DNA from: Candidatus Aminicenantota bacterium
GTDB lineage: Bacteria > Acidobacteriota > Aminicenantia > Aminicenantales > Aminicenantaceae
Reading direction: 5' to 3'
Length of the DNA: 42,713 nt
Assembly: GCA_011049545.1 (NCBI GenBank)
Contig: DRHQ01000062.1
Coordinates: forward strand, 1-42,713
A model generated the notes under the pieces. It had not been told where the DNA came from. It made no database searches and saw only the letters and a program-made list of their open reading frames with translations. Positions within the stretch are counted from its first letter, which is position 1, and each line of letters starts with the position of its first letter. The position numbers and the translations under genes are program-made. Of this stretch, positions 968 to 36,833 are shown one piece after another.

Positions 968-2394
968 AAAAATCGATTGTTTTTATATCATTATTTCTCT
1001 TATTTTCTGTTTATCTTTTATCTGCAAGGAGAGCGCTCATTATTGGAATTGATCACTATAAGTATAATGATATATATGGAGGGAAACTCGATCTTAGAGG
1101 TTGTACGAATGACGCGCTTGATATTAAAAACATCTTAATAGAGAAATTCGATTTTAAAGAAACTGAAATGCGCCTTCTTTTAAATCAAGATGCTACTAAA
1201 GAGTCAATACTGGAAGGATTTCAATGGCTAGTTCGAGAAACAAAACCTCAAGACTGGGTAGTTTTTAGTTTTTCGGGCCATGGTAAACAGATTCAAGATT
1301 TAAATGGGGATGAAGAAGATGGCCTTGATGAATGTATCTGTCCTTATGACGTAGAGCCAAGATATCTTTTAAACCTAATATCAGATGATGATATTAATCA
1401 GTTTATCATTAAGCTGAAGGACCGCCGTGCTTTTTTTCTTTTTGACTCCTGTCATTCTGGCACAATAAAGCGAGGAATTTCACCCGAAGCAAATGGGATA
1501 AACAAAGAAGGATATTTTGCTCGTATTCTCCCTTCTCCTGACTTGTTAGAGGAAGAATCACAGTATCGTGGGAAACAAACCCATAAATATTACGCCGAGT
1601 CAACAAAAGATGTTAAATCTGGAGTTGATTTTGCTCAAGGCAAAGGTGAGATTTTAGTATTCTCTGCATCAGCTCCCCATCAGGTTGCAATCCCTATAAA
1701 CATAAATAGTGATCATCCAAATGGAGCAATGACATATTCAGTTTTAAAAGGACTTGAAGGAGGAGCTGATAAGAATAATGATGATGTAATTACATATCGG
1801 GAACTACTTCAGTTTTCAAGAGATTATTTGAAAGGTTTAAAATTGAAACAGGAACCTCAGATTGATGCGGAACCTGGAAAAATCGACAAGCCGATATTCT
1901 TCCTCACTCCCCAGGCTGAGTTATCAAACCTAATTAATTCATCCAGCTCGTTTAGCATAAATCTCAGGTTATTTGGAGGAACCTCGAATAAAATTAAACT
2001 GAAAGATCATGTTGAATTTTATGTTGACAGTGAAAAAAGCGGTTACCTTTATCTCTTTGCAATATCTGTTGATGGAGAAGTATGTTGCCTTCTTCCCAAT
2101 CTTTACCAGAAGGACAATCATATAGAAGCGAGGGAAGGGATTATAATACCTCCATTTGATGGAAAATTTTCCATAGAAACTGTTGAACCTCTTGGAAAAA
2201 TGAGGACATTAGCAATTGTCGCAAAGAGACCGCTTGACTTGGCCAGGTTTTGCGGTAGCAGAGAAGATGAATTATTACATACACTTGGAAGTGATGAACT
2301 TAAAGAACTAGTTCGTTCCACTCGAGGGATAGCAAGAGTTCTTTCGCAAGCTGAGTGGGCAGCCGCCGTTCTTGAAATATATATTGTTAAATAG
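964..2394 (+). CDS. Exported caspase-fold protease with C-terminal DUF4384
   Basis: The 476-residue protein begins with a signal peptide (about residues 1-20). A peptidase C14 (metacaspase/caspase) domain follows directly: a RALIIGID first strand, the catalytic His in SGHG (H106), and the catalytic Cys in FDSCHSG (C163). Acidic loops after each (NGDEEDGLDE, ending near 123) are typical of Ca-dependent metacaspase-like enzymes. Residues from about 330 to the end match the DUF4384 pattern (FYVDSEKSGYLYLF, then a PPFDGKFSIE stretch and late LAIVAKRPL), a module often fused to secreted caspases. It likely cleaves substrates in the periplasm or at the cell surface; the substrate is unknown. It is the first large gene of a seven-gene operon and is followed by a second caspase. 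Both catalytic residues are present, so activity is plausible. Confidence 0.9.
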   Translation: MKKSIVFISLFLLFSVYLLSARRALIIGIDHYKYNDIYGGKLDLRGCTNDALDIKNILIEKFDFKETEMRLLLNQDATKESILEGFQWLVRETKPQDWVVFSFSGHGKQIQDLNGDEEDGLDECICPYDVEPRYLLNLISDDDINQFIIKLKDRRAFFLFDSCHSGTIKRGISPEANGINKEGYFARILPSPDLLEEESQYRGKQTHKYYAESTKDVKSGVDFAQGKGEILVFSASAPHQVAIPININSDHPNGAMTYSVLKGLEGGADKNNDDVITYRELLQFSRDYLKGLKLKQEPQIDAEPGKIDKPIFFLTPQAELSNLINSSSSFSINLRLFGGTSNKIKLKDHVEFYVDSEKSGYLYLFAISVDGEVCCLLPNLYQKDNHIEAREGIIIPPFDGKFSIETVEPLGKMRTLAIVAKRPLDLARFCGSREDELLHTLGSDELKELVRSTRGIARVLSQAEWAAAVLEIYIVK

Positions 2395-2449
2395 TATTTA
2401 AATTAATGTTTTTAATTAGAAATTTTATAAATATGGTTTGGAGGCTAAA

Positions 2450-3640
2450 ATGAAAAAAGGTGTCCCTATTATTTTATTAATATTTCTAATTTCAACCTGC
2501 CTTTTCTCCCAACAGAGGAGTTTTAAAGTTGTCGCAAAGTCTAATACCGGGGAAACAGTAAATCTTTATAAGGACTTGTATGCGTTGGTGATAGGAGTAT
2601 CAGATTACCAATATGGATGGCCTGATCTTCCTAATGCTGTCCGTGATGCTGACGAGATAGGAGATGTATTATCAGATCTAGGTTTTAAAGTGACAAGAGT
2701 AAAAGATCCTACCAAAAATGAGCTCATGACGGCGTTTGATGATTTTATTTTTAATGTCGGTCAGGGGAAAGATAATTGTCTGGTGATATTTTTTGCTGGA
2801 CACGGCCATACTGAAAAATTGGCTTATGGAGAAGACATGGGATACATAGTTCCAAGGGATGCACCAAATCCTGATGAAGATATGTCAGGTTTTAAATTTA
2901 AAGCTATCGACATGCACACTGTTGAGGCTTACGCAAGGAGAATAGAAGCTAAACATGCATTATTTCTATTTGACAGCTGCTTCTCAGGGGCAATTTTTAA
3001 CATATCGAGGGCAAAACCGCCACTATACATTAGCTATAAAACAGCAAGACCCGTGAGGCAATTTATCACAGCTGGAGGAGCAGATGAGCCAGTTCCAGAT
3101 AACAGCATATTTAAAAGGCAGTTCATAGAAGCTCTTCAAGGCGAAGCTGACCGTAATGAGGATGGTTATGTAACGGGAACAGAACTTGGAGAATTTCTGC
3201 AGGAGAAGGTAGTTGTATATTCACGCGAGGCCCAGCATCCTCAATATGGTAAGATTCGTGATCCAAGTCTTGATAAAGGAGATTTCGTTTTTCAGCTGAG
3301 GAGCAAGCCAGATGAAACAATACAATACAAGCCAGATGAAACAATACAATACAAGCCAGATGAAACAATACAATACAAGCCAGATGAAACAATACAATAC
3401 AAGCCAGATGAAACAAAACAAGAAATAGGTTATGGATATTTAATAATCAGTTCTTACCCTCCTACTGAAGTAGAAATAGATGAGAGGCGTTATAGAGTAG
3501 CCCCGCCTCTAATTGAGATCAGATTGCTTGCAGGAAGACACACAATAAAGTTTTTTAATAAGGAACTAAGGATTGAAAAAACAATAGTGATTGAGCTTTT
3601 AAAAGGCGAAAGAAAAAGAATTCATGAAAGGTTTAATTAA
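2450..3640 (+). CDS. Exported caspase-fold protease with PEGA-like C-terminus
   Basis: I place the start at ATG 2450 because GGAGG (2440-2444) sits 5 bases upstream; a TTG at 2438 would overlap this site. The 396-residue protein has a signal peptide (about 1-20). Its C14 caspase domain opens with YALVIGVSDY and has His in AGHG (H118) and Cys in FDSCFSG (C177). After the protease comes a tandem run of the octapeptide KPDETIQY (four exact copies and a partial fifth), then a PEGA-like domain (GYLIISSYPPTEVEIDE... LLAGRHTIKF), a small beta module common in surface proteins. It lies 55 bases after the first caspase and 33 bases before the large NHL protein. The pair differ in C-terminal module, suggesting division of labour. 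Substrate unknown. Confidence 0.88.
   Translation: MKKGVPIILLIFLISTCLFSQQRSFKVVAKSNTGETVNLYKDLYALVIGVSDYQYGWPDLPNAVRDADEIGDVLSDLGFKVTRVKDPTKNELMTAFDDFIFNVGQGKDNCLVIFFAGHGHTEKLAYGEDMGYIVPRDAPNPDEDMSGFKFKAIDMHTVEAYARRIEAKHALFLFDSCFSGAIFNISRAKPPLYISYKTARPVRQFITAGGADEPVPDNSIFKRQFIEALQGEADRNEDGYVTGTELGEFLQEKVVVYSREAQHPQYGKIRDPSLDKGDFVFQLRSKPDETIQYKPDETIQYKPDETIQYKPDETIQYKPDETKQEIGYGYLIISSYPPTEVEIDERRYRVAPPLIEIRLLAGRHTIKFFNKELRIEKTIVIELLKGERKRIHERFN
3305..3418 (+). repeat. 24-bp tandem repeat in the second caspase gene
   Basis: Four identical 24-base units (3305-3400) and a degenerate fifth (from 3401) encode KPDETIQY repeats. The units are identical at DNA level, which points to recent slippage. 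Because 24 is a multiple of three, copy-number change alters only the length of the linker between protease and PEGA-like domain. Confidence 0.95.
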
Positions 3641-19835: not shown

Positions 19836-20270
19836 TCAGAATTCTTTTTCCATCCTGTCCAAGAAGTCATCCACTTGGCGGATATATTCCTTATAATCGG
19901 AAATGGCTATGGGCAGAATCTCATAAATTTTTTTATCATCGATATCCATGTATTCATGGACGATGATATTTCGCATCCCTCCAGAACCTTTTAGTTTATT
20001 GGCCAGCTCATGAGTAATAAGCCCTGCATCTGCTGCTTTAATGAAGGATGACGTGTAATCTTCCGGAGGCCGCTGTTCTGACTCGATAACCACATGGCTG
20101 TTGATGTTGGAAGCGCACTCTACGATTAATTGAATCAGCCTTTCTGCAGAGGTTTTCATATAAAAATCAGATAAATATTCGTTAAATGTATGGCCAGCAA
20201 TGGGCTTGAGCTTATCAAGATACATATTTAACCGGGATAGCTTTCTCCGTACTAAATCTGAATCAATCAT
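19836..20270 (-). CDS. hepT: HepT-type toxin (HEPN RNase)
   Basis: The 144-residue helical protein carries the HEPN motif R-x4-H-x-Y (R100, H105, Y107, in RNIIVHEY), the RNase active site of HepT toxins. It is only 3 bases downstream of the MntA-like gene on the same strand, the order known for HepT-MntA pairs. In characterised systems MntA adds AMP to the Tyr of this motif and so blocks the toxin. A short gap with no clear terminator separates it from the convergent envelope gene at 19793. The call is secure by motif and context. Confidence 0.9.
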   Translation of the reverse strand: MIDSDLVRRKLSRLNMYLDKLKPIAGHTFNEYLSDFYMKTSAERLIQLIVECASNINSHVVIESEQRPPEDYTSSFIKAADAGLITHELANKLKGSGGMRNIIVHEYMDIDDKKIYEILPIAISDYKEYIRQVDDFLDRMEKEF

Positions 20271-20273
20271 GCC

Positions 20274-20672
20274 CTATGCCTTTCCTACCGCTCGCTTCAA
20301 ATATGATTTTTCCATGATTCGAAACTTTTTTGAATCCATGTATCGGGCGATCGCTTGGATTCTGAATCGCTGAAAGATTCCTTCTTCATCTTCGAATAGT
20401 GGTTTCCCATGGATTGCGACTCGGTAACTAATAAGGGGCTCGGCGCCGTTCAGAAAGACCGGATCAAATCTGTCGCCAAAGACTTCGCCGAGTTCATTCA
20501 AGATATTGAGTTGTTTACTTGAATCAAACTTCTTTCGGCTCAGAATGCCAATGTCGATATCACTTTTTCCAGTTACATTCCCTTTAGCATAAGAACCGTG
20601 TAAGATAATTAACAGAATGCCATTCTTTTGGCAGAGCTTTTTCAATCTTTCATGATCAATTTTCAGATTCAT
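20274..20672 (-). CDS. mntA: MntA-type nucleotidyltransferase antitoxin
   Basis: The 132-residue protein contains the minimal nucleotidyltransferase motif GS-x10-DxD (G26 S27, D38, D40) in a GSYAKGNVTGKSDIDIGIL context, with a later acidic position (D70) plausible as the third metal ligand. It precedes the HepT gene directly. A GAGAGG ribosome site and a TATAAT box (minus strand, 20693-20698) lie upstream. By analogy it transfers AMP to HepT. The C-terminal extension (SKKFRIMEKSYLKRA) is helical and basic. Confidence 0.9.
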   Translation of the reverse strand: MNLKIDHERLKKLCQKNGILLIILHGSYAKGNVTGKSDIDIGILSRKKFDSSKQLNILNELGEVFGDRFDPVFLNGAEPLISYRVAIHGKPLFEDEEGIFQRFRIQAIARYMDSKKFRIMEKSYLKRAVGKA

Positions 20673-20780
20673 CGCTCTTTTGGCCTCTCAAGATTATACC
20701 ATAAATATAATAACTTATATAAGAAATTGCTTTGGGAAGTTTGTGTCTCATGATATAAATTATGCGGATTGATGTAATCC

Positions 20781-21938
20781 TTAGATTTCTGTTCCTCTTG
20801 CGATTATCTTTATATAGTCTGCGAATAAATACTTACGATATCTTTTTTTCCCCGAAACCTCATTAAGAATATTTATTTCATTAAATTTATTAACTAGTTG
20901 AGTCGCTGTTTGACGGCTAATTTTAAGCTGCATTACTATGTCTGAAACACTGATTAAAGGTTTTTCAAACAACATATCTAACAACTTTACTGCCGGGGCC
21001 CCTCCGATTTTTTTCCTAAGGAGTTCGTTGGATAGCGTATCTTTCAAACCAATAATCTCGTTTGCTGATGATGCAGCTTCTATCGAAATCTCTGCTATTC
21101 CCTGTAAAAAAAACTTTAACCAATTCTCCCAATCACCTTCTAATCTTATTTTCATCAAATAATCATAGTACTTGTCTCTGTATTTTTTTAAATAATAGCT
21201 CAAATAAAGGAGCGGCCGAGTGAGAATGCCTTTCCAGTAAAGATAGAAAGTAATCAATAATCTCCCTATTCTGCCATTTCCATCCAAGAAAGGATGAATT
21301 GTTTCCAACTGCGCATGTATCAGGCCAATTTTTACTAGAGGTGGAATATTGTCCGTCCTGTGCATAAATATTATCAAATTTAACATCAGCTCTCTTACTT
21401 GATTGGGAGGAGGAGGAATAAATATAGCATCATTGATGGTCACTCCAGGAGGACCTATCCAATTTTGAGATCGCCTGAATACACCAAGGTTTCTTGATGT
21501 ACCTCTGGTGCCTTTTAACAATATATTATGAATTTCTTTTACTAGACTTAAGGACATGGGAAAATCATTTTTTCTTAATCGATCAATCCCATAATTCAAC
21601 GCTTTTACATAATTAATGACTTTTTTTATTTCATGGATATCCTCTTTCGGTTTCAATCCAGCTTCAAAAGCGAGTACGCCTTCTAAAGAAGCTTGAGTTC
21701 CTTCAATTTGCGAACTTAAGAGAGCTTCTTTCTTTGTATACATAGCAATGAAAGGATCTGGATTTGGCAATACGGATGAAACTCCATCCAGCCGCGCCAG
21801 GGCACGGTCAGCTTCTGATAATAGGAATTGAAGCTGATCATCATATTTAAAGGGCGGATACGGAGGTAGAGTATTTGGGATGAAAGTCTCATATCCACTT
21901 AATTGTGTTATGAATTTACCTGCTATATGCTTACTCAT
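20781..21938 (-). CDS. Fic family protein with autoinhibitory motif and winged-helix C-terminus
   Basis: The full-length 385-residue protein has an N-terminal Fic_N-like region with the inhibitory signature S-x-x-x-E-G (S75 to G80), which places an Arg-binding Glu (E79) near the active site in autoinhibited Fic enzymes. The catalytic motif HPFLDGNGRIGR is at 215-226 and is intact. A C-terminal winged helix (SVSDIVMQLKISRQTATQLVNKF) suggests DNA binding. Upstream are repeated AGTCAA/TTGACT half-sites that could be its own operator. It is paralogous to the truncated gene at the left edge. Expected activity is AMPylation or another nucleotidylation; target unknown. Confidence 0.92.
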   Translation of the reverse strand: MSKHIAGKFITQLSGYETFIPNTLPPYPPFKYDDQLQFLLSEADRALARLDGVSSVLPNPDPFIAMYTKKEALLSSQIEGTQASLEGVLAFEAGLKPKEDIHEIKKVINYVKALNYGIDRLRKNDFPMSLSLVKEIHNILLKGTRGTSRNLGVFRRSQNWIGPPGVTINDAIFIPPPPNQVRELMLNLIIFMHRTDNIPPLVKIGLIHAQLETIHPFLDGNGRIGRLLITFYLYWKGILTRPLLYLSYYLKKYRDKYYDYLMKIRLEGDWENWLKFFLQGIAEISIEAASSANEIIGLKDTLSNELLRKKIGGAPAVKLLDMLFEKPLISVSDIVMQLKISRQTATQLVNKFNEINILNEVSGKKRYRKYLFADYIKIIARGTEI

Positions 21939-21939
21939 G

Positions 21940-22038
21940 AGTCAACCATTCTTGACTTAAAATGAAATTTTATTTCTAAGTCACTATTAATTGACTAATT
22001 TAAAATATCAATAGTCTCAGTCTACTAAAATTGACTTA
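21940..22038 (-). promoter_or_regulatory. Cluster of AGTCAA/TTGACT half-sites upstream of fic
   Basis: AGTCAA (21940-21945) is inverted at TTGACT (21952-21957) with a 6-base spacer. AAGTCA (21978-21983) is inverted at TTGACT (21991-21996). CAGTCTA (from 22018) faces TTGACTTA (22031-22038). Three inverted pairs in 100 bp right before the fic start suggest binding of a dimer, perhaps the Fic winged helix itself. The first pair overlaps the translation start region. Confidence 0.5.
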
Positions 22039-22060
22039 GAAGCCTATGTGAAAAGAGTGG

Positions 22061-22912
22061 CTATATTTTTAAGTATTTCATTATTCTGTTGATAGTTTCA
22101 TATGAATCACGTTGGATAATTTCTCTTTCTTCAGCCTCACTTGGTTCGAAAAAATTAGCCACTGCAACCGGCCCCAATGAATCAAGGTTTTTAAAACTTT
22201 CTTTAATTAAGTTCAACGCTTGAATAAACAATTTGTTATTTGTCTGTCTTGATAACTCTTTAATCACACCTGCCTCACCCTTTGGATGATTCTTGAAGAG
22301 CCAATAAATATCATACGCATCCTTTTCGCTTCCTCTTTCATTAAAAGCGAAACCTTTTGTAGCGATGATTGAATAAAGATTCGCTACCTTTAGTTTGATT
22401 TTAGTTCTGGCCCCATTTGGCATATTTGCTTCTAATTCTCTTTCGACACAGCTCTCAAATACTAAATCAATGCCTCTGCCTTTTCTGGCTAACATATCAT
22501 GGATTCTTTGATGCCTCTTATTTCTACTTGACCCACCATATTCTGAAGCCAAAAAGTCAACCTGAATAGTATGTTCATTATTGTTTCTGTCAATAAAAGT
22601 TCTTTCATAACTGGCGTGGATGATGTTCCCTCTTCTGTCTTTTCTGTTTTTATAACCTCTTTCTTCTAAAATATCTGTTATTGTTTGATAATCTTGCTCA
22701 GGTATTAAAAGAAAATTCAAAGCCAGATCAACATCCAGAGAGCCCACATGCTCTTCTTCTTCTGCCTTTATCTCTCCATATAAAAAATAGGGAACCCATC
22801 CTCCTACCAACACTATATTATGGCTGTATTTTTTTAAATAAGTCATTAATTCTACAATAATTGAAAAACAAGCATTCGTTTTAGCTGAAGAATATTGACT
22901 CTTTAATTTCAT
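22061..22912 (-). CDS. AbiEii-like nucleotidyltransferase toxin
   Basis: The 283-residue protein has the nucleotidyltransferase pattern VLVGGWVP (G37, G38), SLDVDLAL (D60, D62) and QVDF (D119). Later come TKGFAF (K186) and SEKDAYDIYWL (K197, D198, D201), typical of AbiEii/AbiGii toxins. In type IV AbiE systems the toxin modifies tRNA or another RNA and blocks growth after infection. The gene starts 7 bases after the AbiEi-like gene on the same strand. The AbiEii assignment rests on motif order; a related nucleotidyltransferase of non-toxin function is possible. Confidence 0.75.
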   Translation of the reverse strand: MKLKSQYSSAKTNACFSIIVELMTYLKKYSHNIVLVGGWVPYFLYGEIKAEEEEHVGSLDVDLALNFLLIPEQDYQTITDILEERGYKNRKDRRGNIIHASYERTFIDRNNNEHTIQVDFLASEYGGSSRNKRHQRIHDMLARKGRGIDLVFESCVERELEANMPNGARTKIKLKVANLYSIIATKGFAFNERGSEKDAYDIYWLFKNHPKGEAGVIKELSRQTNNKLFIQALNLIKESFKNLDSLGPVAVANFFEPSEAEEREIIQRDSYETINRIMKYLKI

Positions 22913-22919
22913 TAAATAC

Positions 22920-23975
22920 CTATAATTTTATAGCCTTTTCTCTCAGGTATTCTGCTTGTTCTCTTCCTCTACCTTTGTAGTTATAAAGGTCGAGATAAAG
23001 CTGGATGTTAGAAACCACATTTCTTTTTTGGACTTTTTGTATCCCATAAAACACGCCTTCATCATAGGGCTTTAGGATAATTACGTTGGCTCCAGAAGTA
23101 ACCGGTTTTAATCCAGTTTCTTTTATCAATTTTTCTATGTTGTCTGAAAAATAAAAGAAGGTTTGGTTCGTCCTAACAAAAGGAGAAATCAATTCGCCTG
23201 CGGTGAAAAGTGTAAAAGCATATCCTTCTGTGTTTTTTTTAGACATATATTCAATTAGACGCTCCTCAAATTCTTTTCGGCTCAGAGGGGAATAAAAGCC
23301 CTGGACTTCATTGTTTAAATAGGAGTAATTTTCTCTCCAAAGATCCAATAATTTTGAAGGATTTTTTAACGAAATTTTTTTATTTTGATCCAAATCTATA
23401 TATTCTAAATCATAAAGCCTTTTTATAACTCTATTTGTTAGGCCAATACTCACATTTGATTCATTCGACAGACTAATTTGAGTCCAGATTTCTTCTGGAC
23501 GTGCTAGTAGTACTCTCAATAACCGTGTTGTTTTTTTTGAAAATAATGATTTAAGTTCTCTTTTTCCAGAGACAATACTTATGAAATTTTTTTTCTCTAT
23601 ATAGATTGAGTCAAAAGAAAGAAAACAATTACCTGACAGGTCTATATAGCCAATGTTTGCTTCTTTACAGACCTCACCGGTTTTTTCACTTATATAAGGC
23701 GCCGCAATAATTCCGTATACATCGATAGTCTTCCTCAGATAAGAAGATAATTGCTGGACAGCAGATCTTATATATCGGGGTTCTCCAACAGTTTTTATTT
23801 CAACAACTATATTTTTTTTCTTATTGTTTAAAAATATTTCTATAATTAAATCGGCTTGAAAAAGAGGAGATATTCTGACATCTTTTTTAGTTTTTTCTAT
23901 TGAAATTGATGGTATTTCACAGAGAACTTCCTTTATTTTATTTTCTAATTTAGTGATATATTCTTTTTTTTCCAT
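22920..23975 (-). CDS. AbiEi-like antitoxin with N-terminal nuclease-fold domain
   Basis: I use ATG 23975 as start; GTG 23981 is an alternative and neither has a clear ribosome binding site. The 351-residue protein begins with a restriction-endonuclease-like domain: D42 (QADLIIEI), E59-x-K61 (VVEIKTVG) and a Q-x-x-x-Y motif (QLSSY, Q75/Y79), the hallmark of RecB-like PD-(D/E)xK folds. Residues about 145-205 form a winged helix (a TNRVIKRLYDLEYIDLD stretch) and the C-terminal half resembles AbiEi antitoxins. Its position just before the AbiEii-like gene and the palindrome at its promoter support an autorepressing antitoxin. The nuclease fold is unusual for AbiEi and may act in DNA binding or cutting. 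Confidence 0.75.
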   Translation of the reverse strand: MEKKEYITKLENKIKEVLCEIPSISIEKTKKDVRISPLFQADLIIEIFLNNKKKNIVVEIKTVGEPRYIRSAVQQLSSYLRKTIDVYGIIAAPYISEKTGEVCKEANIGYIDLSGNCFLSFDSIYIEKKNFISIVSGKRELKSLFSKKTTRLLRVLLARPEEIWTQISLSNESNVSIGLTNRVIKRLYDLEYIDLDQNKKISLKNPSKLLDLWRENYSYLNNEVQGFYSPLSRKEFEERLIEYMSKKNTEGYAFTLFTAGELISPFVRTNQTFFYFSDNIEKLIKETGLKPVTSGANVIILKPYDEGVFYGIQKVQKRNVVSNIQLYLDLYNYKGRGREQAEYLREKAIKL

Positions 23976-23992
23976 TTTCACTATTTAGGCTG

Positions 23993-24445: not shown

Positions 24446-26713
24446 TTATCTAACAGATCGAATCCGAATAGCCTCTTTCACTTGCAGGTTTTGTGTTATC
24501 CAGCCTACACGATTCATCATCTGTACTACTTCATTATAAACAGGTTGCTCCCGTTCAGGATCTCTAATTGTAGCAATTAATGCAACAGGTTGATCTTGTG
24601 CAGATGATGGCTTGCGAGCAAACATTTCAAGATTAATACGCCAAGTTTTTCCTAAATTTAAACGTTTGAATTTTGATCGATATGCTTTTACTGGAGACCA
24701 CTTAAATCCATGCTCTATCTGATATTTTTCATACAACTCTCTGTAGTTCTTTGGATAGGGAATAACCTTACGGCAATATTTGCTGTTAGAAATTCCAACA
24801 ATCCCCAAAGAAACATTGACATTGATCTGGCTGTAGGCAGCGCCATCATTTGGATCTACAGGAGGATCATAAACTAGAGTTAATATAATTTCTCCAAATA
24901 TTTTTCCGTTACGATGGAGGCAAGGTGGAATAGGAAAATCAACTTTTTGGAAATGTCTGTAAGAAAAGGGAAGATTCAAATCAAATATCAAGGTCGCTTC
25001 CCAAGGATGACAATGCAAAATTTCCTCTACGCTGGGAGGTTTACCAAATCCTTTAAAGGGAAGATCTTCTGCTGAAATATCAGGAGAGTTAAGAATAGCT
25101 GAATGTATAATGAATGCTTTTGTTAAGTGACGAGATGGGATTTCTTCAAGTGCTTTTTGTAGCTGAGCTGCCGTTAACGCTACTAAGGGTGAGGCAAAAC
25201 TTGTGCCAATTGTCTCTGCGATTTGCGCAGAACCATTTGTTGAAAGAACTCCGATTTGAGCAAAATTTAAATTACGTTTAGCATTACCTCCAAAATGTGA
25301 CACTTCGGGTTTTGGAACGAAAGCAGCTCCGGGACCTTTTCTCGTAAACGGTGAGGGATCTCCTTTTCGAGCACAAGCATCACTACAAGACAAATGTGCT
25401 ATTGAACCGACTGTGATGGAACGCAAAGAATCTCCAGGCCGAAATAAGCGATCTTCATTGTTTAAATCTGGACGACGCCAATCATGAAGTGGAGTTTGAT
25501 CATAATTACCAGTACAGTTAATTACGAGAACATTGTATTGATCCTGAAGGCTATCCAAGGCAATTGCAAAATCCGAGAAACAGTCATTTCTACACTGTTT
25601 TTTTACACTTAGTGATAAATTCCATATTTTTACATCAGGATGGGATTTGAAAGCATGCTTTATAGAATTGATAAGTTGATTTTCAAAAATAATACCAGAT
25701 TTAGACATAACAACAACATCTACAATTTTTGCATGTCCTGTAGGGAATTCATTGTGATTGTGATTCAATGATCTTCCATTTATTAGCAATCCGGCAACTA
25801 GACTTCCATGTTCATTGTCCTGATTGTTTATTGGCACTAAGCTATCATCTCTCCTTTCGATCCAGGCTTGAAGATGTGAATTGCTAGGATCTGTTCCTGT
25901 ATCGATGATGCCGACTACTGGATATTCAATATTAGGTGAGGGAGGAGGAATATCATCTTCGGATATTGTCCTTATTGGGATTGTTTGGGTTTGGATAGTA
26001 AACTGTTCAAATACATCAATGCTTTGAGTGCCCACAAAAGAGCTTAATTGATCGATCATGTTTTCTGATTTTGATACATTAATGCAAAAAATATTCAGTT
26101 TATCGGAATAAAATAACATTTTAGGTTTTTGCAGCTTTTCTTTTTGAAATAACGCTAGAAATGCAGTATGGAGCTTCTCATCAAGGTTTTTATCACAGTG
26201 GTTAAATACTCGCAGCTTAAACGAAGAAAGGTTATTCTCAATAAGGTATCTTTGTAGGTTATTTGTAGTCCACTTTCCAAGTGCATCTTCTTTTGTATAA
26301 GGTTTAATTGAGAGAACCTTTGACACGTCATTTTTTACTGAAAAAGCATCATTTGTACTAATGGTTTGGATAAGATTTTGCAGTGAATTTGGCATAATAG
26401 TAATAAGTAATTCACCAAAATTTTCTGTGCCAAATACTGGGCAAGTCTTATCCTTGAATATTGATTCTGGTTTGTGACTTTTTGCGAATGCCTCTTCTCT
26501 TAAAGTGACTCGAGCAACCGAAGGTAAGTTTGATGAAGTGAATATTTTTTCAAAATACATTTTAACATGTTTTAGATCAGCCAGAAGAGTCTTGCGAGAT
26601 TCATCATAAAATCTCGTAAAATCCTTTGTGGATCCTCCAATATTTGGTCGCTTGAAGTCATGTGATGTGGGGAGAATGACTTTGATGGGAAGATATTCTT
26701 TTGAATCATTCAT
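24446..26713 (-). CDS. ietS: IetS-type subtilisin-like protease of an ATPase-protease defence pair
   Basis: The 755-residue protein has an N-terminal domain of about 260 residues and then a peptidase S8 domain with the complete triad: Asp271 (GIIDTGTD), His302 (EHGSLVAG) and Ser505 (GTSFASPLVALTA), with oxyanion Asn403. There is no signal peptide, so it acts in the cytoplasm. A beta-rich C-terminal region of about 190 residues follows. It overlaps the upstream AAA ATPase gene by 8 bases on the same strand. This gene order and size match the IetAS anti-phage system (ATPase plus S8 peptidase). The protease is presumably held inactive until infection; the target is not known to me. Confidence 0.85.
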   Translation of the reverse strand: MNDSKEYLPIKVILPTSHDFKRPNIGGSTKDFTRFYDESRKTLLADLKHVKMYFEKIFTSSNLPSVARVTLREEAFAKSHKPESIFKDKTCPVFGTENFGELLITIMPNSLQNLIQTISTNDAFSVKNDVSKVLSIKPYTKEDALGKWTTNNLQRYLIENNLSSFKLRVFNHCDKNLDEKLHTAFLALFQKEKLQKPKMLFYSDKLNIFCINVSKSENMIDQLSSFVGTQSIDVFEQFTIQTQTIPIRTISEDDIPPPSPNIEYPVVGIIDTGTDPSNSHLQAWIERRDDSLVPINNQDNEHGSLVAGLLINGRSLNHNHNEFPTGHAKIVDVVVMSKSGIIFENQLINSIKHAFKSHPDVKIWNLSLSVKKQCRNDCFSDFAIALDSLQDQYNVLVINCTGNYDQTPLHDWRRPDLNNEDRLFRPGDSLRSITVGSIAHLSCSDACARKGDPSPFTRKGPGAAFVPKPEVSHFGGNAKRNLNFAQIGVLSTNGSAQIAETIGTSFASPLVALTAAQLQKALEEIPSRHLTKAFIIHSAILNSPDISAEDLPFKGFGKPPSVEEILHCHPWEATLIFDLNLPFSYRHFQKVDFPIPPCLHRNGKIFGEIILTLVYDPPVDPNDGAAYSQINVNVSLGIVGISNSKYCRKVIPYPKNYRELYEKYQIEHGFKWSPVKAYRSKFKRLNLGKTWRINLEMFARKPSSAQDQPVALIATIRDPEREQPVYNEVVQMMNRVGWITQNLQVKEAIRIRSVR

Positions 26714-27830
26714 TTGCTTCTCTTTTTCCTAGCTTACGTGAGATAGTTGCTGGAGATACTCCAAACATCTCTGCCAATTTTAGACCAGTAAAGTAAGTTG
26801 AATTTAGTTTTTTAATGGCCTTGAGATCTTGGGAGCTTGGATTTTCAGTAATGATATTGTTATTTAAACATATTCTGATACAGCTCCAAACTAAGCGATC
26901 AGAATTAACAGTATCTAACTTATTAATCACAGTGTCACGAATTGCATCAAGTGCAAGTGTTCGAATATCTGAACCAGTCATCGTATTAGTAAGGGACGTG
27001 AACAAATCAAAATTTAATCCTTTTTGGAATGAACCGAAATAGAGCTTGAGAAGCTCTTTTCTTTCTTTTTCCTCTGGAACTTTGAGAGGGATTTTAAAAG
27101 AAAATCGTCGCCAAATTGCTGGATCTAGTAAATGTTCATGATTAGTTGCTGCAAGCAAAACTGTATGGTGGCTCATGGCATCTAGGTTCTGAAGCAGGCT
27201 TACTACAACCCTTTTCAATTCTCCAAGTTCTTGATGATCATCTCGCAGTTTGGCGAGCGCATCAATTTCATCAAGAAAGAGAATGCAGCTTCTTTGAGAA
27301 ACATGATCAAACAAATTGCGAAGATTTTTTGATGTGCTTCCAAGGAAAGATGATATTAAAGCGTCAGTGCGTGCTATAACCAATGGCATGCCAAGTCGCC
27401 CAGCTATGTATCGGGCTAGTTGAGTTTTTCCTGTTCCAGGAGGCCCATATGTTATTAATGAAGGTGATAGGTATATTCCATGTGCTTCAAGTTCATCTAC
27501 GTTTTTTACAAAAGCGATAAACTCTTCGATAAGGGAATGAGTGTTAGTGTCAAGAATGACTTTGTAGTTTTTTGGATCAAGAATTTCTTCATCTGCTAAT
27601 TCAAGTCTAGACTCTCCATCTACAGGAAGTTGGCGATTATAGCCAATAGCGCTAGTAGTGACTGGGGAGGCAGCCTTTTCTTGTAGGGCTCTGAGTCGTT
27701 TCATCGCATCAACGTCTCCCTCTTGCATCAGCTTTTCAATAAGTTTATTGAGGTAAATGTTAACACGCTCAGGATCGCCCTTCAGTCCCCACTCTATAAT
27801 TTTTACAATTTCTTTGGGTAAATATTCCAC
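26706..27830 (-). CDS. ietA: IetA-type AAA+ ATPase with C-terminal HTH
   Basis: The GTG-started 374-residue protein has Walker A GPPGTGKT (129-136), Walker B ILFLDEID (about 183-190), a sensor segment AATNHEHLLDPA and an arginine-finger-like WRRF. Residues 345-372 form a helix-turn-helix (LKLAEMFGVSPATISRKLGK). It overlaps the subtilase gene, and together they fit the IetAS defence pair. A GGAAGAGG site precedes the start. The HTH at the end suggests DNA contact, either for autoregulation or recognition. The upstream region carries repeated TGAAAT half-sites and a TTGACA promoter. ATPase activity is expected; all nucleotide-binding residues are present. Confidence 0.85.
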   Translation of the reverse strand: MEYLPKEIVKIIEWGLKGDPERVNIYLNKLIEKLMQEGDVDAMKRLRALQEKAASPVTTSAIGYNRQLPVDGESRLELADEEILDPKNYKVILDTNTHSLIEEFIAFVKNVDELEAHGIYLSPSLITYGPPGTGKTQLARYIAGRLGMPLVIARTDALISSFLGSTSKNLRNLFDHVSQRSCILFLDEIDALAKLRDDHQELGELKRVVVSLLQNLDAMSHHTVLLAATNHEHLLDPAIWRRFSFKIPLKVPEEKERKELLKLYFGSFQKGLNFDLFTSLTNTMTGSDIRTLALDAIRDTVINKLDTVNSDRLVWSCIRICLNNNIITENPSSQDLKAIKKLNSTYFTGLKLAEMFGVSPATISRKLGKREANE

Positions 27831-29617: not shown

Positions 29618-31081
29618 GTGGAGAAATTAAACCACCTTGTCTACAAGACATGGCATGATAATTGGGCCAATGAAGGGCAGGGTATATTTTCTGATTTATT
29701 AAAGAGCGGAAGCCGATATCCGAAGAAAGCCGAAAATACAGTAGCAATAAGATCCCCAGGCATTCGTGTCGATTCAGGTGTTCCCTTTACTGCCCTCATC
29801 CACCCTTCTAATCCTGAATCAGGAGCTTATGGAGGGATGTCTTTTGTGATCTTCCCTGTTGAAAATGCTCCTTGTCTTGTAGCGATGGGAATTGGAACCC
29901 AAGGGCTTAGTCCAGATGAGCATATCCTCGGTCGTCCCGGCCATGGACGGAAAGTACAAGCAATTTGTGCTTGGCTTAATAAGGAATATGGAGAGGGTAA
30001 GCTCATTGCATGGGCAAAGCAAGACCCAGTCAGAATCGATGAAGACATTCCTGATAATATACGAAACATGTTTCCTGCCTATCAATCCATATTTAATAGG
30101 TATGGAAAAGTACTCTATGGGATCTATATTCCAAACAAAAAAAAAGAGGCGACCGGAATAGCTTTAAAAGCATTCTTGGATCTTATGTTCGAAGAGCGCA
30201 AGATACAACCTCTTAAAGCATCACAACAGGATTTCGAACAGATCAAATCTTCCTACTTTAGCTACCTAATGCCTTCAGTTTCTCCCCAGGAAATCTTTGA
30301 TTTGCTACAAAAACGCCGTTATATCATTCTAGAAGGACCTCCAGGTACAGGAAAAACAATGATGGCTCAACAACTGCTCAAAAATAATTATCAGAATAAT
30401 GGTCGCACGATCCAGTTTCACCCAAATGTAACATATGAGCAGTTCATAGGAGGGCTCGCGCCTGTAAAAACAGATGATGGATTTGGATTTCGCTTCGAAC
30501 CCAAGAAAGGATTTTTAATGGAAGCAGTTCAAGAAGCGTTAAAAAATAACAAAAAAAATTATCTTTTACATATTGATGAAATAAATAGGGGAGACTTGGC
30601 TAAAGTTTTAGGAGAGGCAATTTATCTTTTCGAACATGCTGCCTTAGAAAAGCGCAAGGTGGATTTGCCATACGATTTTGGCAGTCCAATTCACAAACAA
30701 TTTGAGCTTCCGACAAACCTCCACATGCTTGGCACCATGAATACTGCAGACAGAAGCATTGCAATCGTTGATGTGGCGATTCGCAGACGTTTTGCTTTTG
30801 TGAAGCTGTGGCCTCAGATGAAAGTTGTCAAATCAAATGGTTGTGAGTTGATGCAACGAGCATATAAGGAAATCCTTTCAATTTTTATTGAGTATGCAAG
30901 TGATGATGCATTTAATCTTGTGCCTGGACACGCCTATTTTCTCGAAAAAGATAATAAAGAAGCGGCTCAAGCACTTAAAATAAACCTAGCGCCTTTATTA
31001 GAAGAGTATTTAGCGCAGGGTTATGTTGCTGGCTTTTCTGATCCCATACGTGCTTATCTACAATGGATTGATAGCCTTTAG
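29618..31081 (+). CDS. mcrB: McrB-like AAA+ GTPase, restriction motor
   Basis: The GTG start has AGGAGG (29606-29611) upstream. The 487-residue protein has an N-terminal domain (1-200) unlike the classical DUF3578 or McrB DNA-binding domain that I know, then a McrB-type AAA+ core. The core has Walker A GPPGTGKT (240-247), Walker B LLHIDEINR (316-324) and the McrB signature MNTADRS (374-380) with VDVAIRRRF. McrB hydrolyses GTP and drives translocation for McrC. It forms a two-gene operon with the nuclease gene that starts about 38 bases later. The new N-terminal domain is expected to set the target (modified base or other). Confidence 0.9.
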   Translation: MEKLNHLVYKTWHDNWANEGQGIFSDLLKSGSRYPKKAENTVAIRSPGIRVDSGVPFTALIHPSNPESGAYGGMSFVIFPVENAPCLVAMGIGTQGLSPDEHILGRPGHGRKVQAICAWLNKEYGEGKLIAWAKQDPVRIDEDIPDNIRNMFPAYQSIFNRYGKVLYGIYIPNKKKEATGIALKAFLDLMFEERKIQPLKASQQDFEQIKSSYFSYLMPSVSPQEIFDLLQKRRYIILEGPPGTGKTMMAQQLLKNNYQNNGRTIQFHPNVTYEQFIGGLAPVKTDDGFGFRFEPKKGFLMEAVQEALKNNKKNYLLHIDEINRGDLAKVLGEAIYLFEHAALEKRKVDLPYDFGSPIHKQFELPTNLHMLGTMNTADRSIAIVDVAIRRRFAFVKLWPQMKVVKSNGCELMQRAYKEILSIFIEYASDDAFNLVPGHAYFLEKDNKEAAQALKINLAPLLEEYLAQGYVAGFSDPIRAYLQWIDSL

Positions 31082-31118
31082 TCTTTTCGAGTCTATCAAA
31101 AGTTTATGTGAATATTCA

Positions 31119-32543
31119 ATGGCAACTCAAGCAGATAACAGAGATGTCCGTTGTTTAGAGACAACGGACTCCTCTCTTTTAAGACGATCTGCTACATTTT
31201 TTTTAAAAAGTGGCAAACCTCGAGATTATCAAGCTCAAGCTGCTAGGCTAGGAAAGCAGTTTATTCAACAAAATCGCAGGATTTTCAACCAATTCGATGT
31301 TGAAGCGAGTCTGGACTATGATGGCTCATCAGTCGATATTGTAATCCGTACAGGCTCAAAAATTGGGGCGTTGCCTCTTTTTTCACCTACAAGTGGAAAA
31401 CCAGATTATGGTCTTATTATTAAACCTCGATTTGATTGGTCTGGGCTGGGTGCCATGCTAGGGGAGATGGGTTGGAAGATCATTCCTGTACCTCTAATGC
31501 TTCCGCTCTTACCACGGTCAGATAGAAAAATTCCACCATGGGTTCTTTCTACAATTGTGCTATTCAGAATAAAATCAATCCTTGATTTTGTCGAAAGAAG
31601 ATTTGATTTTATAGAGGCAGATCTTAATGCTCCTCGTGGTCAGATTAACTGGGGAATTTATACAACATCCCGGTTGCCGCGAATGAAAAACCTAAGTGTT
31701 CCTTGCCGCTTTCCAGATTTACGAGATGATCGGGATCTGTTGGCAGCCATTCATTTTACACTGAGAGTTCAACTTTCTAGCCTCGCGGGGCAACGTCAAG
31801 GTGGTGTTGCTGTGCTTCAACTCCTGGATGTCTGTGAAACTCTTTTAAACCGCGTCAGAAATGTACCGGCAAAACAACCCACTCCTAGAACTATAAATTC
31901 ATGGTTGAGGGGATCTATACATACTTCTCCTTTTCGCAAAGGCATACAAGCTATGCAATGGACAATTGAAGAGAGAGGACTTGCTGGTTTAAGCGATCTT
32001 CATGGATTGCCATGGAAAATGTCTATGGCCGATTTCTATGAGGCTTGGGTTGAAACTGTTATCGAACGTCTTGTAAGGCGCATTGGAGGTTCAATCAAGA
32101 TTGGCCGAAAACAAGAAACGGTTGCCCCTATTTCCTGGATTCACCCTTATCTTGGCTCTCAGAAGTATCTCAAACCTGACATAATTATCGAGCGCGGTGA
32201 TGAAACAATAATTATTGATGCTAAGTTCAAAGATCACTGGCAGGAACTTAGCCATACAACTTGGGGAAAATTAGATTCTGAAATACGTGAGGCACATCGT
32301 GAAGATATCTTACAAGTGCTTGCCTATTCGACATTATACACTTCCAAAAAGGTCATCGCTTGCCTAGCTTATCCTTGTAGGAAAAAAACGTGGGAATATT
32401 TGCGAGATAAAAGGCAGCTTCATAGACATGCAACTATATATTCTGGAAAGCGCAAGGTCGATTTAATACTTACCGCTGTTCCAATGATGGCAGAAGTGGA
32501 TAAAATTGTTCGAAGCTTGGAAGAAGCGTTTGTAGAAAACTGA
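31119..32543 (+). CDS. mcrC: McrC-like endonuclease subunit
   Basis: The frame is open from 31023, inside mcrB, but the first good start after the McrB stop is ATG 31119 (474 residues). The C-terminus carries the McrC nuclease core: PDIII (D354), IIDAKFKDHW (D367-A-K369) and QVLAY (Q-x-x-x-Y), plus the preceding DFYEAWVETVIERL (with a candidate metal-binding Glu). The N-terminal half is the McrB-binding region. Together with McrB it should cut DNA with the modification or site read by the McrB N-terminus. No ribosome binding site of note precedes 31119, so coupling to mcrB is likely. Confidence 0.85.
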   Translation: MATQADNRDVRCLETTDSSLLRRSATFFLKSGKPRDYQAQAARLGKQFIQQNRRIFNQFDVEASLDYDGSSVDIVIRTGSKIGALPLFSPTSGKPDYGLIIKPRFDWSGLGAMLGEMGWKIIPVPLMLPLLPRSDRKIPPWVLSTIVLFRIKSILDFVERRFDFIEADLNAPRGQINWGIYTTSRLPRMKNLSVPCRFPDLRDDRDLLAAIHFTLRVQLSSLAGQRQGGVAVLQLLDVCETLLNRVRNVPAKQPTPRTINSWLRGSIHTSPFRKGIQAMQWTIEERGLAGLSDLHGLPWKMSMADFYEAWVETVIERLVRRIGGSIKIGRKQETVAPISWIHPYLGSQKYLKPDIIIERGDETIIIDAKFKDHWQELSHTTWGKLDSEIREAHREDILQVLAYSTLYTSKKVIACLAYPCRKKTWEYLRDKRQLHRHATIYSGKRKVDLILTAVPMMAEVDKIVRSLEEAFVEN

Positions 32544-32815: not shown

Positions 32816-33487
32816 GTGTTAAAGGTCAAACTAACATGGGAAAAAGTTATTAAGGCCGTAGATTTCGATGCTAACATAGATTTCTTAATGAATAATAGAG
32901 GTCTATATTTGTGGATTTGGCCAGGCAAAAATCCAAGAGTTGGTTATGTTGGAGAAACAATGAACTTTTATCATCGCATGCTCGAACATTTCTACAATAT
33001 AATCGGTGGAAAATATCTTTTATTTAATCCCTCCCCCGAATTGGACTTTTTGGATTATTTAAAAGAACATTACATTGGGAAAACCATAGAAGAACTAAAT
33101 GAAAATAACACGATATTCTCACCAATAAAAAATGCAAAGAGAGACCTTAGTTTTAAAAGAGTATTCCTCGATGAAAGCGAATTGAAATTGAGGTTAGAAA
33201 ATCTAAGAAAAAGGGAATTTGCTTTTGCGACTATGGAGTTTTCAATAAAAACTGATAATGAAGCACTATTGCGGAAACAGATAGAAGGGGCATTAATCAA
33301 TGAGTTATTCAATAAATACAAAGCTCTCACTCGTTCTTCACTCAAATTGAAGGGGGCTGGCAAATTCAGTCAATGTGTTATTGGAGACATCAGTAAATGG
33401 CCTGAAACCGACATTGAGATTGTTCATGAAGGATTGACAAACAGGATACCGCAAGAGGTGATTGAAATTAAGGGTTTTAATGTATGA
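32816..33487 (+). CDS. GIY-YIG-like nuclease family protein
   Basis: The 223-residue protein (GTG start, AG-rich site upstream) has near its N-terminus the pattern GLY (29-31), then RVGYVGET (41-48) with G43-Y44-V45-G46, R54 and H58. This matches the GIY-YIG nuclease order of two short strands, an Arg and a His. A helix with LRKQIEGALINELF could supply the acidic metal ligand. It follows the McrBC genes by 272 bases, with no gene in that gap. It might be an extra nuclease of the same locus. The family call is by motif only, with moderate confidence. Confidence 0.6.
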   Translation: MLKVKLTWEKVIKAVDFDANIDFLMNNRGLYLWIWPGKNPRVGYVGETMNFYHRMLEHFYNIIGGKYLLFNPSPELDFLDYLKEHYIGKTIEELNENNTIFSPIKNAKRDLSFKRVFLDESELKLRLENLRKREFAFATMEFSIKTDNEALLRKQIEGALINELFNKYKALTRSSLKLKGAGKFSQCVIGDISKWPETDIEIVHEGLTNRIPQEVIEIKGFNV

Positions 33488-34015: not shown

Positions 34016-35161
34016 ATGAAGAAAGGTGGCGTATTACTTTTAACTATATGCTGTAACCATAAAGCTAAAGGAGGAGTTTCTTTTTTTGATCCTGCAGATT
34101 CAATCGTATCGCTTCTTCCTTCACATAAAAAGGATTTAGTAAAGCGAAGGAGAGAAGTTCTTAACCTTATAACGAGTAAAAAGGCAAAAAGGGATGAACT
34201 GCCGGTTTCATTTTTACCTTACAATGTTGAACTAGCACTCGGGCCAGATTTCGGTGGCAATGAAGACGCTCTGTATCTCCCAGCTATAGATCGATATATG
34301 GGAAGATTTTATCTTGAACTTAAGAAGACAAAAGAACACTTTGTAGAATACCCTTGGATTCATTTTTTGCTTTTTTCGGGATTATATGGGGTGATCACAA
34401 TTGATGAACCAATCCAACTTTATAGTTGCTATCTCCCAGATCATGAGGAAATATCTCAAGTGTGGAAAAAAAATAATTTTGCAACATCTTTAATAGTATC
34501 GTATATAAAAAAATATGAAATTTCTTTAGTGATTGATCTGACAGCACAAATAATATTTCGCAGTCTGTTTGATTGGGAAAAAATCAAAGAAACTTCTCTA
34601 GTACTGCATGCTTTTAGCGATCAGAATGCAGGACCTTCAATCTTGCCAGGTTTAGGAGAGTTTGTAAGGATACATGTATTGTCTAAAGGAAGAGATGATG
34701 TTTTAGGAATGATGCCTGGTCAAAAATATGAAACTGAATATGAAAATATCTATCTCTTTGATTCTCCAGAATCCCTAGAGGGCTTTCCTAAAGAAAAGAA
34801 TGAAGTAGATCTTAATTTAGACTCTCTTAATCCAAGGCCTAATCTGCCAATTAGCTCTGGCATACATACTTCTGTTTTTGGTAATAGGATTAGCAACTTG
34901 AATGATTTGCCAATTTCGGTTAGGGATATATTTTTAACTTTGAGTCGATGCCCTGATGTTCTAGGAATCAAATTAGGCAGCTTTAATTTTAGAGGGCCAA
35001 AAAGTAGCGAGTTTCAAATAAGACTAATGCCCACAAAAACGGGATATTGCCATATCTATGGGAAGTTGTTAGGACAAAGGAAAGTGCAAGAGATTGATAT
35101 AAGTGTAACAAAAAATTGCGAGGAGAAAACAAAAGAATTATTGGAAACATTATTAAATTGA
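34016..35161 (+). CDS. YaaA/DUF6884-like protein, first gene of a candidate two-gene defence unit
   Basis: The 381-residue protein begins GGVLLLTICCNHKAKGG, a short strand and Cys/Lys-rich loop. Later it has ALYLPAIDRYMGRFYLELK and LLFSGLYGVITIDEPIQLYSCY (SGLYG at 121-125). This order (loop, tyrosine-rich helix, SGLYG-x-DE-Y) matches the YaaA/DUF6884 superfamily, whose members bind DNA or modify bases and occur in defence loci. Residues 280-381 form a separate domain with no family I recognise. It sits 46 bases before the GHKL ATPase gene (ATG 35208) and shares its strand, with only a poor ribosome binding site. A role in sensing modified or damaged DNA is inference. Confidence 0.55.
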   Translation: MKKGGVLLLTICCNHKAKGGVSFFDPADSIVSLLPSHKKDLVKRRREVLNLITSKKAKRDELPVSFLPYNVELALGPDFGGNEDALYLPAIDRYMGRFYLELKKTKEHFVEYPWIHFLLFSGLYGVITIDEPIQLYSCYLPDHEEISQVWKKNNFATSLIVSYIKKYEISLVIDLTAQIIFRSLFDWEKIKETSLVLHAFSDQNAGPSILPGLGEFVRIHVLSKGRDDVLGMMPGQKYETEYENIYLFDSPESLEGFPKEKNEVDLNLDSLNPRPNLPISSGIHTSVFGNRISNLNDLPISVRDIFLTLSRCPDVLGIKLGSFNFRGPKSSEFQIRLMPTKTGYCHIYGKLLGQRKVQEIDISVTKNCEEKTKELLETLLN

Positions 35162-35207
35162 GAGATTTTTTATACAAAAAAAACAAAAAAAATAAGGAGT
35201 AATGAAA

Positions 35208-36833
35208 ATGTTTGAACTCTATAAGCACAAAAAACACGAGATTTCGATTGGTATTGCAATAATAAAACAGGTTATCCAAAACATAGGGAATCCACTTGAT
35301 GCGATCAGAGAAGCAATGTCAAATTCATGTGCTAAAGAAGTGGATGCATCTTATTTTAAAATTATAATCTTTTATGATGGTTCCTTCGGGTGGTCTTTTA
35401 TCCTTGAGGATGATGGCATAGGAATGGATTACACAGGAGAGAAGGACCCAGCTAAACAAGGGAGACTTGATAAATTTTTAAATCTAGCATACAGCGGAGT
35501 GGCCGGACTCAAGTCAGATGAATTTGGATTTAAAGGCCTTGGCTCAAAATTAATGTATTTATGTAGAAAGCTCGAAATAGATACAAAAACAAAAAAGGGT
35601 GAAAATTATAAAGTAATCGTAGAGAATCCTTACGAAAAATTGATAGAAAAAGAAAAACCAGATCTTCCTATTCCTAAGATATTTGAGGGAGGTGCTTCCA
35701 TGAATATTGAACAGGGAACAACAATTCGCATTTTAGGTTATGACAAAGGAATAAAATATCCTGAATATGAAAATCTAGAAAAGCTAAAACAATATTTATA
35801 TTTTAGGACCCTGATTGGTTATACTCGTCCCGAAAGAATCAGAGAAGGATTTCCTAAGATAACACTGAAAACTCCTGCTGGCCCAGAAGAAGAAGAGCTA
35901 AAACTAGGTTTTCCATGGATTAAGAAAGAAGGTGATCATGTCGAAGGACAAAAAATTGGCTGTATCGATCCCCCTATTGTAGTTACCAGAGATGATAAAA
36001 AAGGAAATAAAGTGATAATTACCCTTAAAGGCGGATATGCTTTGAAAACCGGGGAATTTGGAATGACCGATTATGGTATTTTCGAAAGCAAAAGTTTAGG
36101 CCTGGCCTATGCTTGGAAAGGAATTCCTTATTTTAATTTAGATTTCAATCGATATAAACCACAAGGATTCGATCTCTATTATAAGTTTTGTAGGTTTGTA
36201 ATTGAATGTGATAATGTAGAAACAGATATAGCAAGAAGTAGAATTGTCCCAGAGGGATCCAAAGAGCCCCTTTTCTCATCTGCAGTGCGTGAAGCATTCA
36301 GAAGAATAATGGAAACGAAAGATTATAATGATTGGATTAAACATCGGAGATATCTGAAAAAGAAAGAATTAGGGACGACATTAAATCAACGAAAAGAAGA
36401 GCTACTAGGGCAAGATCAAAAATGGGTCTATTTTAATGGAAAATTATTGCATAAAGAGCCCTATAGTGAACATGATGTGCGGGCACTGCTTTGGAAGCTG
36501 GAGGGAAAAGATGGATTACCTTTTTATTATTTTAAAACTCTGGAGCATACTGCACAAAGAGGCATAGATATTATTGCTGAATATCAAGAAAAAGATTTTT
36601 CAGAAAAGAAGCTATTTCAATCAATAGAGGTTGAGTATATTTTAGAGAATTATTCTGATCACGATCATGCTCCTGAACAGACATCATTAATTGTTGCATG
36701 GGATTCAAAAAATCGAGATAAATTGACAAAAGCAGAAAGTGATTGGAAGTATGTATGGGAATACATGGGGCACAATTTAAATGTTATTTTGTTAAGATAT
36801 ATCCCAGAAATTGAGATAAAAACAAAAAGCTAA
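35208..36833 (+). CDS. GHKL (Hsp90-like) ATPase with C-terminal nuclease-like domain
   Basis: The start is set by AAGGAG (35194-35199), 8 bases before ATG 35208; the ATG at 35202 is too close. The 541-residue protein has the Bergerat fold motifs: E35 and N39 in AIREAMSNSC, the G1 box DDGIGMD (68-74) and the G2 box GFKGLGS (107-113). From about 400 to the end is a separate domain with GIDIIAEYQ (D454), QSIEVEYIL (E474, E476) and a later LIVAWD (W498). This resembles a restriction-endonuclease-like fold of the E-x-E type. I read it as an ATP-gated nuclease, comparable in plan to MORC- or MutL-like switches. It pairs with the YaaA-like gene upstream. I do not know of a described system with this pair. 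Confidence 0.65.
   Translation: MFELYKHKKHEISIGIAIIKQVIQNIGNPLDAIREAMSNSCAKEVDASYFKIIIFYDGSFGWSFILEDDGIGMDYTGEKDPAKQGRLDKFLNLAYSGVAGLKSDEFGFKGLGSKLMYLCRKLEIDTKTKKGENYKVIVENPYEKLIEKEKPDLPIPKIFEGGASMNIEQGTTIRILGYDKGIKYPEYENLEKLKQYLYFRTLIGYTRPERIREGFPKITLKTPAGPEEEELKLGFPWIKKEGDHVEGQKIGCIDPPIVVTRDDKKGNKVIITLKGGYALKTGEFGMTDYGIFESKSLGLAYAWKGIPYFNLDFNRYKPQGFDLYYKFCRFVIECDNVETDIARSRIVPEGSKEPLFSSAVREAFRRIMETKDYNDWIKHRRYLKKKELGTTLNQRKEELLGQDQKWVYFNGKLLHKEPYSEHDVRALLWKLEGKDGLPFYYFKTLEHTAQRGIDIIAEYQEKDFSEKKLFQSIEVEYILENYSDHDHAPEQTSLIVAWDSKNRDKLTKAESDWKYVWEYMGHNLNVILLRYIPEIEIKTKS

Follow-up and report, generated by a model that had tools for sequence, protein, structure and literature searches.

A GHKL ATPase with a nuclease-like C-terminal domain next to a YaaA/DUF6884-type gene in the defence island of an Aminicenantota bacterium

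Two neighbouring genes of a Candidatus Aminicenantota bacterium raise the question of whether a YaaA/DUF6884-like protein (P0001) and a GHKL ATPase carrying a nuclease-like domain (P0002) act together as one new anti-phage system, as proposed in the initial annotation of this DNA, or merely stand side by side. The analysed DNA, hereafter called the window, is the 42,713-nt contig DRHQ01000062.1 of assembly GCA_011049545.1; the coordinates below are those of the window unless another contig is named.

The locus and the YaaA-type protein

Both ORFs are intact, adjacent, and located on the same strand 40 bp apart, as had been annotated (Table 1). No terminator of the + strand is predicted in the gap between them, which fits an operon, and the two genes may be co-transcribed. 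For P0002, the ATG at 35208 is a likelier start than the codon at 35202, since it has an AAGGAG at better spacing and agrees with the start of the L010 orthologue; the residue numbers used here count from 35202.

The dense defence island claimed around the two genes is real: a HepT/nucleotidyltransferase pair, AbiEi/AbiEii, a Fic protein, IetAS, McrB/McrC-like genes, and a GIY-YIG gene were found in it. The GIY-YIG-like protein is a member of the array by position only, and its functional tie to the other genes is putative. Between the GIY-YIG gene and P0001 (33484-34000), the stop codon of the former overlaps a start codon, and the remnant of an open frame terminates immediately ahead of P0001; the gene that lay here appears to have been broken by the integrase fragment of an insertion sequence. 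Elsewhere in the window (964-3640), two Peptidase_C14 (caspase-domain) proteins are encoded in tandem, and after them come a large NHL/PEGA/TPR protein and a CHASE2 Ser/Thr kinase.

Table 1. Features of the window and of the two proteins under study
Feature	Coordinates	Strand	Basis and remarks
HepT and nucleotidyltransferase, Fic protein, AbiEi/AbiEii pair	19836-23981	all -	
IetAS defence pair	24446..27830	-	IetS 24446-26713, PADLOC E 9.8e-230; IetA 26706-27830, PADLOC E 9.1e-126
McrB-like AAA_5 ATPase	29618-31081	+	AAA_5 E 1.7e-14; opens the + strand array (29618..32543)
McrC-like protein	31023-32543	+	McrBC PF10117 E 2.9e-9
GIY-YIG-like protein, upstream in the P0001/P0002 array	32816..33487	+	PF01541 E 0.0032, under the cut-off
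Insertion-sequence fragment (integrase core, rve) that separates the GIY-YIG gene from P0001	33484..33873	+	PF13683 E 2.1e-28
P0001, YaaA/DUF6884-superfamily protein, 381 aa	34016..35161	+	PF03883; CxxxK and SGxxG motifs; homologues L091, L092, L093
Extra C-terminal domain of P0001, residues 272-356	34829..35083	+	Also at the end of the nucleoside-deoxyribosyltransferase-like protein L094 1384-2538
P0002, GHKL ATPase with C-terminal PD-(D/E)XK-like domain, 543 aa	35202..36833	+	Bergerat motifs, MORC/MutL profile matches, Foldseek
Nuclease-like domain of P0002, residues 407-543	36420..36830	+	E423, D456, E476, E478, Lys at 418; conservation, domain model

P0001 matches the Pfam YaaA family (PF03883) with an E-value of 1.5e-6 and a score of 28.3 bits, 1.3 bits short of the curated cut-off of 29.6; it is related to YaaA, yet it is not a filed member. 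The CxxxK and LSAxxG motifs by which DUF6884 is recognised were found in it as C12xxxK16 and S121-G-L-Y-G125 (FSGLYG), and it shares the CxxxK and SGxxG motifs with haloarchaeal DUF6884 proteins. CxxxK and SxxxG are the motifs of the DUF6884/YaaA cantaloupe-fold superfamily (PMC11701544). The DUF6884 model itself (PF21818) found no match in the genome of the window at an E-value of 0.001. The SGLYG pattern and the extra domain ascribed to this protein were both borne out: residues 272-356 match L094 in a genome search (5.5e-4), and the pairwise score is 38.5 bits, while 200 shuffles reached no more than 21.2 bits.

The closest relatives of P0001 are few. Searches of plasmid and phage collections with P0001 gave no match, and scans of viral contigs with the protein or with its small alignment found nothing. 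A YaaA-family protein of the Dpd 7-deazaguanine system, DpdC, hydrolyses preQ0 in DNA (PMC12839542). Membership of P0001 in the Dpd system was considered and rejected, as the protein has no DpdC match and no DpdA-type TGT was found in the genome, whose sole TGT scores 487 bits as a standard Tgt (the genome is 89.7% complete).

Recurrence of the gene pair

Five orthologues of P0002 with 71-74% identity were found: two on viral contigs (L005 and L006) and one each in Clostridiales (L010), Micrarchaeota (L011), and Methanophagales (L012) MAGs. Such a level of identity across viral, bacterial, and archaeal contigs points to recent transfer of P0002 between domains of life. Comparison of the five orthologues revealed four different upstream neighbours, namely an ABC-ATPase/GNAT-like gene in L005 and L006 and, named by sequence reading and a neighbour tally, DUF4268-like (L010), RmuC-like (L011), and SMC-like (L012) genes. 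A profile search detected YaaA/DUF6884 in none of the five loci, of which L010 and L012 are short contigs where a distant YaaA could be missed, and profile searches detected it in no other non-haloarchaeal GHKL locus either. No neighbour family recurs among the 64 non-haloarchaeal members of the P0002 family, some of which adjoin a DNA methylase, BrxA, a BsaWI-type REase, or AAA_15.

The same result was obtained from the side of P0001. Across as many as 297 phylum genomes, no relative of P0001 stands beside a P0002-type GHKL gene, and the 1.5-kb flanks of the phylum's DUF6884 genes contain no adjoining gene of this type. The neighbours of P0001 relatives vary: in L100 they are unrelated genes, in L101 (by reading) BrxD/helicase-like genes, and in L102 a GIY-YIG gene. 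The L101 relative, from the same order, lies on a contig segment (0-8467) whose adjoining genes were read as BrxD-like ATPases and an Lhr-like helicase. The P0001–P0002 pairing was thus seen once, in the window, and a recurring two-gene system, as first proposed, is not supported in the present sampling, which includes short contigs and, for the phylum, genome subsets numbering at most 297.

A related grouping was found in haloarchaea. In 21/21 haloarchaeal relatives of P0002, the genes of a DUF6884 protein, a TGT, and the GHKL protein form a fixed cassette and overlap or touch one another (including L013 8256-13595 and L003 4245-7509). In 18 of the 21 loci, a further TGT homologue (about 640-680 aa) that combines TGT and ArcS regions is encoded nearby. 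Housekeeping TgtA and ArcS are encoded elsewhere, with scores above the cut-offs, in three of the four haloarchaeal genomes tested, and TgtA in the fourth; hence, the TGT/ArcS genes of the cassette are extra paralogues. The haloarchaeal GHKL proteins have lost the nuclease residues (D456 is replaced by N or H, E476 by S or A, and position 478 is H or Q). The cassette can be considered a candidate uncharacterised locus of 7-deazaguanine-type base modification, in which the GHKL protein would no longer cut. Should the modification fall on DNA, the cassette would be the archaeal equivalent of Dpd, and the function of DUF6884 would become directly testable.

These data bear on the reading in which P0001 and P0002 are one defence system, where P0001 would sense or edit a base of the phage DNA that P0002 would cut. 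The closeness of the two genes on one strand, the lock between the same GHKL family and a DUF6884 protein in all 21 haloarchaeal loci, and the action of DpdC, a YaaA-family enzyme, on a modified base in DNA are consistent with it. However, the pairing is absent from the five orthologues and from all non-haloarchaeal loci, P0001 relatives occur without a P0002-type GHKL protein, and the haloarchaeal members, which have lost the nuclease residues, form with the group of P0002 separate clades on long branches, for which the tree shows no sister relation. We consider such a system unlikely, although it survives better than the other alternatives.

Less likely still is that P0001 works with the upstream McrBC-like/GIY-YIG genes in an array that was later broken by the insertion-sequence fragment, P0002 being an independent neighbour. 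The order McrB–McrC–GIY-YIG–(disrupted ORF)–P0001 in a single + strand array would agree with this, as would the L102 relative of P0001, which directly adjoins a GIY-YIG gene, albeit a different one. These are two instances only; moreover, a search of 247 phylum genomes found no relative of the window's GIY-YIG protein, and the P0001 relatives of L100 and L101 have no adjoining GIY-YIG gene.

The GHKL protein and its nuclease-like domain

The family of P0002 was assembled from viral contigs, plasmids, and genomes and comprises 85 full-length relatives, 64 non-haloarchaeal and 21 haloarchaeal. The P0002 sequence itself has no Pfam match, whereas HATPase_c_3 is matched by 24 of 26 family members. 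The Bergerat motifs, described earlier as complete, are so: residues R36, E37, S40, N41, D70, G72, G74, G109, K111, G112, G114, and K116 are invariant in 85/85 relatives. The best PDB sequences for the family profile are MORC2, MORC3, MORC4, and MutL, with the MORC2 and MORC3 ATPases at the top. A Foldseek search with the whole-protein model matched the ATPase modules of GyrB, Hsp90, MutL, and MORC; the alignments to the GyrB, MutL, and MORC modules span 280-330 columns, and the model (pTM 0.52) is weak between residues 282 and 353, where the pLDDT is below 50. P0002 was found in one of 297 genomes of the phylum and is therefore sporadic. In plasmid and phage collections, the P0002 query found three distant plasmid matches (two of them haloarchaeal) and none in phages.

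The GID...EVE...W block, which had been likened to a restriction fold, is the region of the conserved nuclease motifs. E423, D456, and E476 are invariant in 64/64 non-haloarchaeal relatives, while position 478 is K in 38 and E in 26 of them; P0002 has E and, accordingly, the ExE form of the motif. This form is known from BamHI. Of the two residues singled out for mutation in the initial annotation, D454 and E476, whose numbering fits the 541-aa protein starting at 35208, the first corresponds to D456 and is indeed conserved, whereas the second corresponds to E478 and is Lys in many relatives. A Lys or Arg at position 418 (36453-36455 in P0002) occurs in 96% of the E478 group but in 8% of the K478 group, each group consisting of related sequences. 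This distribution is suggestive of Lys418 being a relocated catalytic lysine in the E478 members.

When modelled alone, the C-terminal domain (pLDDT 86, pTM 0.82) is predicted to have the alpha-beta-beta-beta-alpha-beta order of the PD-(D/E)XK fold, with a helix at 423-435, strands at 444-449, 457-461, and 472-480, a helix at 481-486, and a strand at 496-501. The helix 423-435 and the strands 457-461 and 472-480 place E423, D456, and E476 as the restriction fold requires. A Foldseek search of this domain against the PDB gave nothing significant (NucS 2vld, EndoMS 5gke, Ecl18kI, and BamHI appeared only at E-values of about 1-4), and neither did a search against viral models. Consequently, the assignment of the domain as a nuclease, which agrees with the earlier one, rests on conservation and topology.

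One can also suppose that the domain is an inactive relative of the restriction fold that binds DNA or protein, so that P0002 would be no nuclease. The Glu in place of Lys at 478, the clear loss of the site in the haloarchaeal relatives, and the lack of a significant fold match in these searches would be in line with that. It is doubtful, and more so than either alternative discussed above, given that the three acidic residues never vary among P0002 and the other non-haloarchaeal members (64 in all), that the ExE form is found in BamHI, and that the Lys/Arg at 418, mostly missing in the K478 group, fits a relocated catalytic lysine. Least probable of all is that YaaA/DUF6884 proteins and the GHKL family were joined more than once as a base-directed DNA-defence module, in which a YaaA-type protein would read or alter a modified base and a GHKL clamp would act on the DNA so marked; the haloarchaeal module would include a pair of TGT-type enzymes and an inactive nuclease domain, and that of the window an active one.

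Single-gene interpretation and comparison with known systems

In our opinion, P0002 is probably a self-contained defence nuclease that travels as a single gene, while P0001 is a separate gene of the island that P0002 most likely does not need. The plausible new two-gene system is thereby corrected to a single-gene GHKL-nuclease. P0002 would probably dimerise via its GHKL domain and, on ATP binding, close on DNA; closure would position or switch on the C-terminal restriction-fold domain, and invading DNA would be cut. A similar scheme of ATP-driven closure and nuclease activation was proposed for paraMORC3 (PMC2292703), and for VcSduA it is supported by mutants of either site (PMC12137116). P0001, for its part, would probably bind DNA and use the site formed by CxxxK and SGxxG to act on a base that is damaged or unusual. 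The preferred reading of the locus is weakened by the haloarchaeal branch, which shows the GHKL family to be capable of partnership with DUF6884 proteins, by the operon-like gap between the two genes, and by the shortness of the L010 and L012 contigs. The Glu at 478, the insignificant fold matches of the nuclease-like domain, and the weak stretch of the whole-protein model also count against it.

As for described systems, the pair does not recur, and the GHKL–nuclease architecture of P0002 is already known. In paraMORC3 (Iyer, Abhiman and Aravind 2008), the GHKL ATPase is followed by an S5-type region and, at the C-terminus, by a restriction fold bearing E-D-ExK; its spread is sporadic, and a subset is described as standalone genes without neighbours (PMC2292703). 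Judged by this published description, P0002 resembles it in the conserved GHKL ATP-binding motifs, the restriction-fold C-terminus with E-D-Ex(K/E), and the sporadic occurrence. As to an S5-fold domain after the GHKL domain, the Foldseek alignments of 280-330 columns stand against the low pLDDT at 282-353. In contrast to paraMORC3, the P0002 clade shares only about 20-26% identity with the rest, combines ExE with Lys at 418, contains an N-box insertion, and bears Leu for His in the GxKGHGTK box.

VcSduA (Shedu type I-D) is likewise a single protein, with an N-terminal GHKL and a C-terminal PD-(D/E)xK domain, and P0002 shares this arrangement; VcSduA acts against phages with no partner, and mutation of either site abolishes its activity (PMC12137116). 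Membership of P0002 in Shedu was rejected at the sequence level, since the DUF4263 domain was not detected. DUF4263/SduA_C gave no Pfam match at an E-value of 0.05 in 26 full-length family members and one weak match (E 0.041) among 40 nuclease domains, hhalign against SduA_C gave a probability of 0.65%, and PADLOC found no Shedu match. There may be a remote link at the level of the fold.

The matches of the P0002 family with restriction enzymes of the BbrUII/HgiDII type and with the GHKL defence proteins Tiamat/MzaB are weak and confined to the GHKL region; their C-terminal parts are unlike that of P0002, and the scores are far under the NCBIfam cut-offs (47.5 versus 550 for BbrUII). As for the DUF6884/YaaA/DpdC proteins (PF21818, PF03883), P0001 has the superfamily's motifs but differs in its sub-cut-off YaaA score, in having no DpdC match, and in the extra C-terminal domain seen in an NDT-like protein. 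Compared with these systems, the P0002 clade is a divergent addition to the GHKL-nuclease kind that has apparently moved between viruses, bacteria, and archaea.
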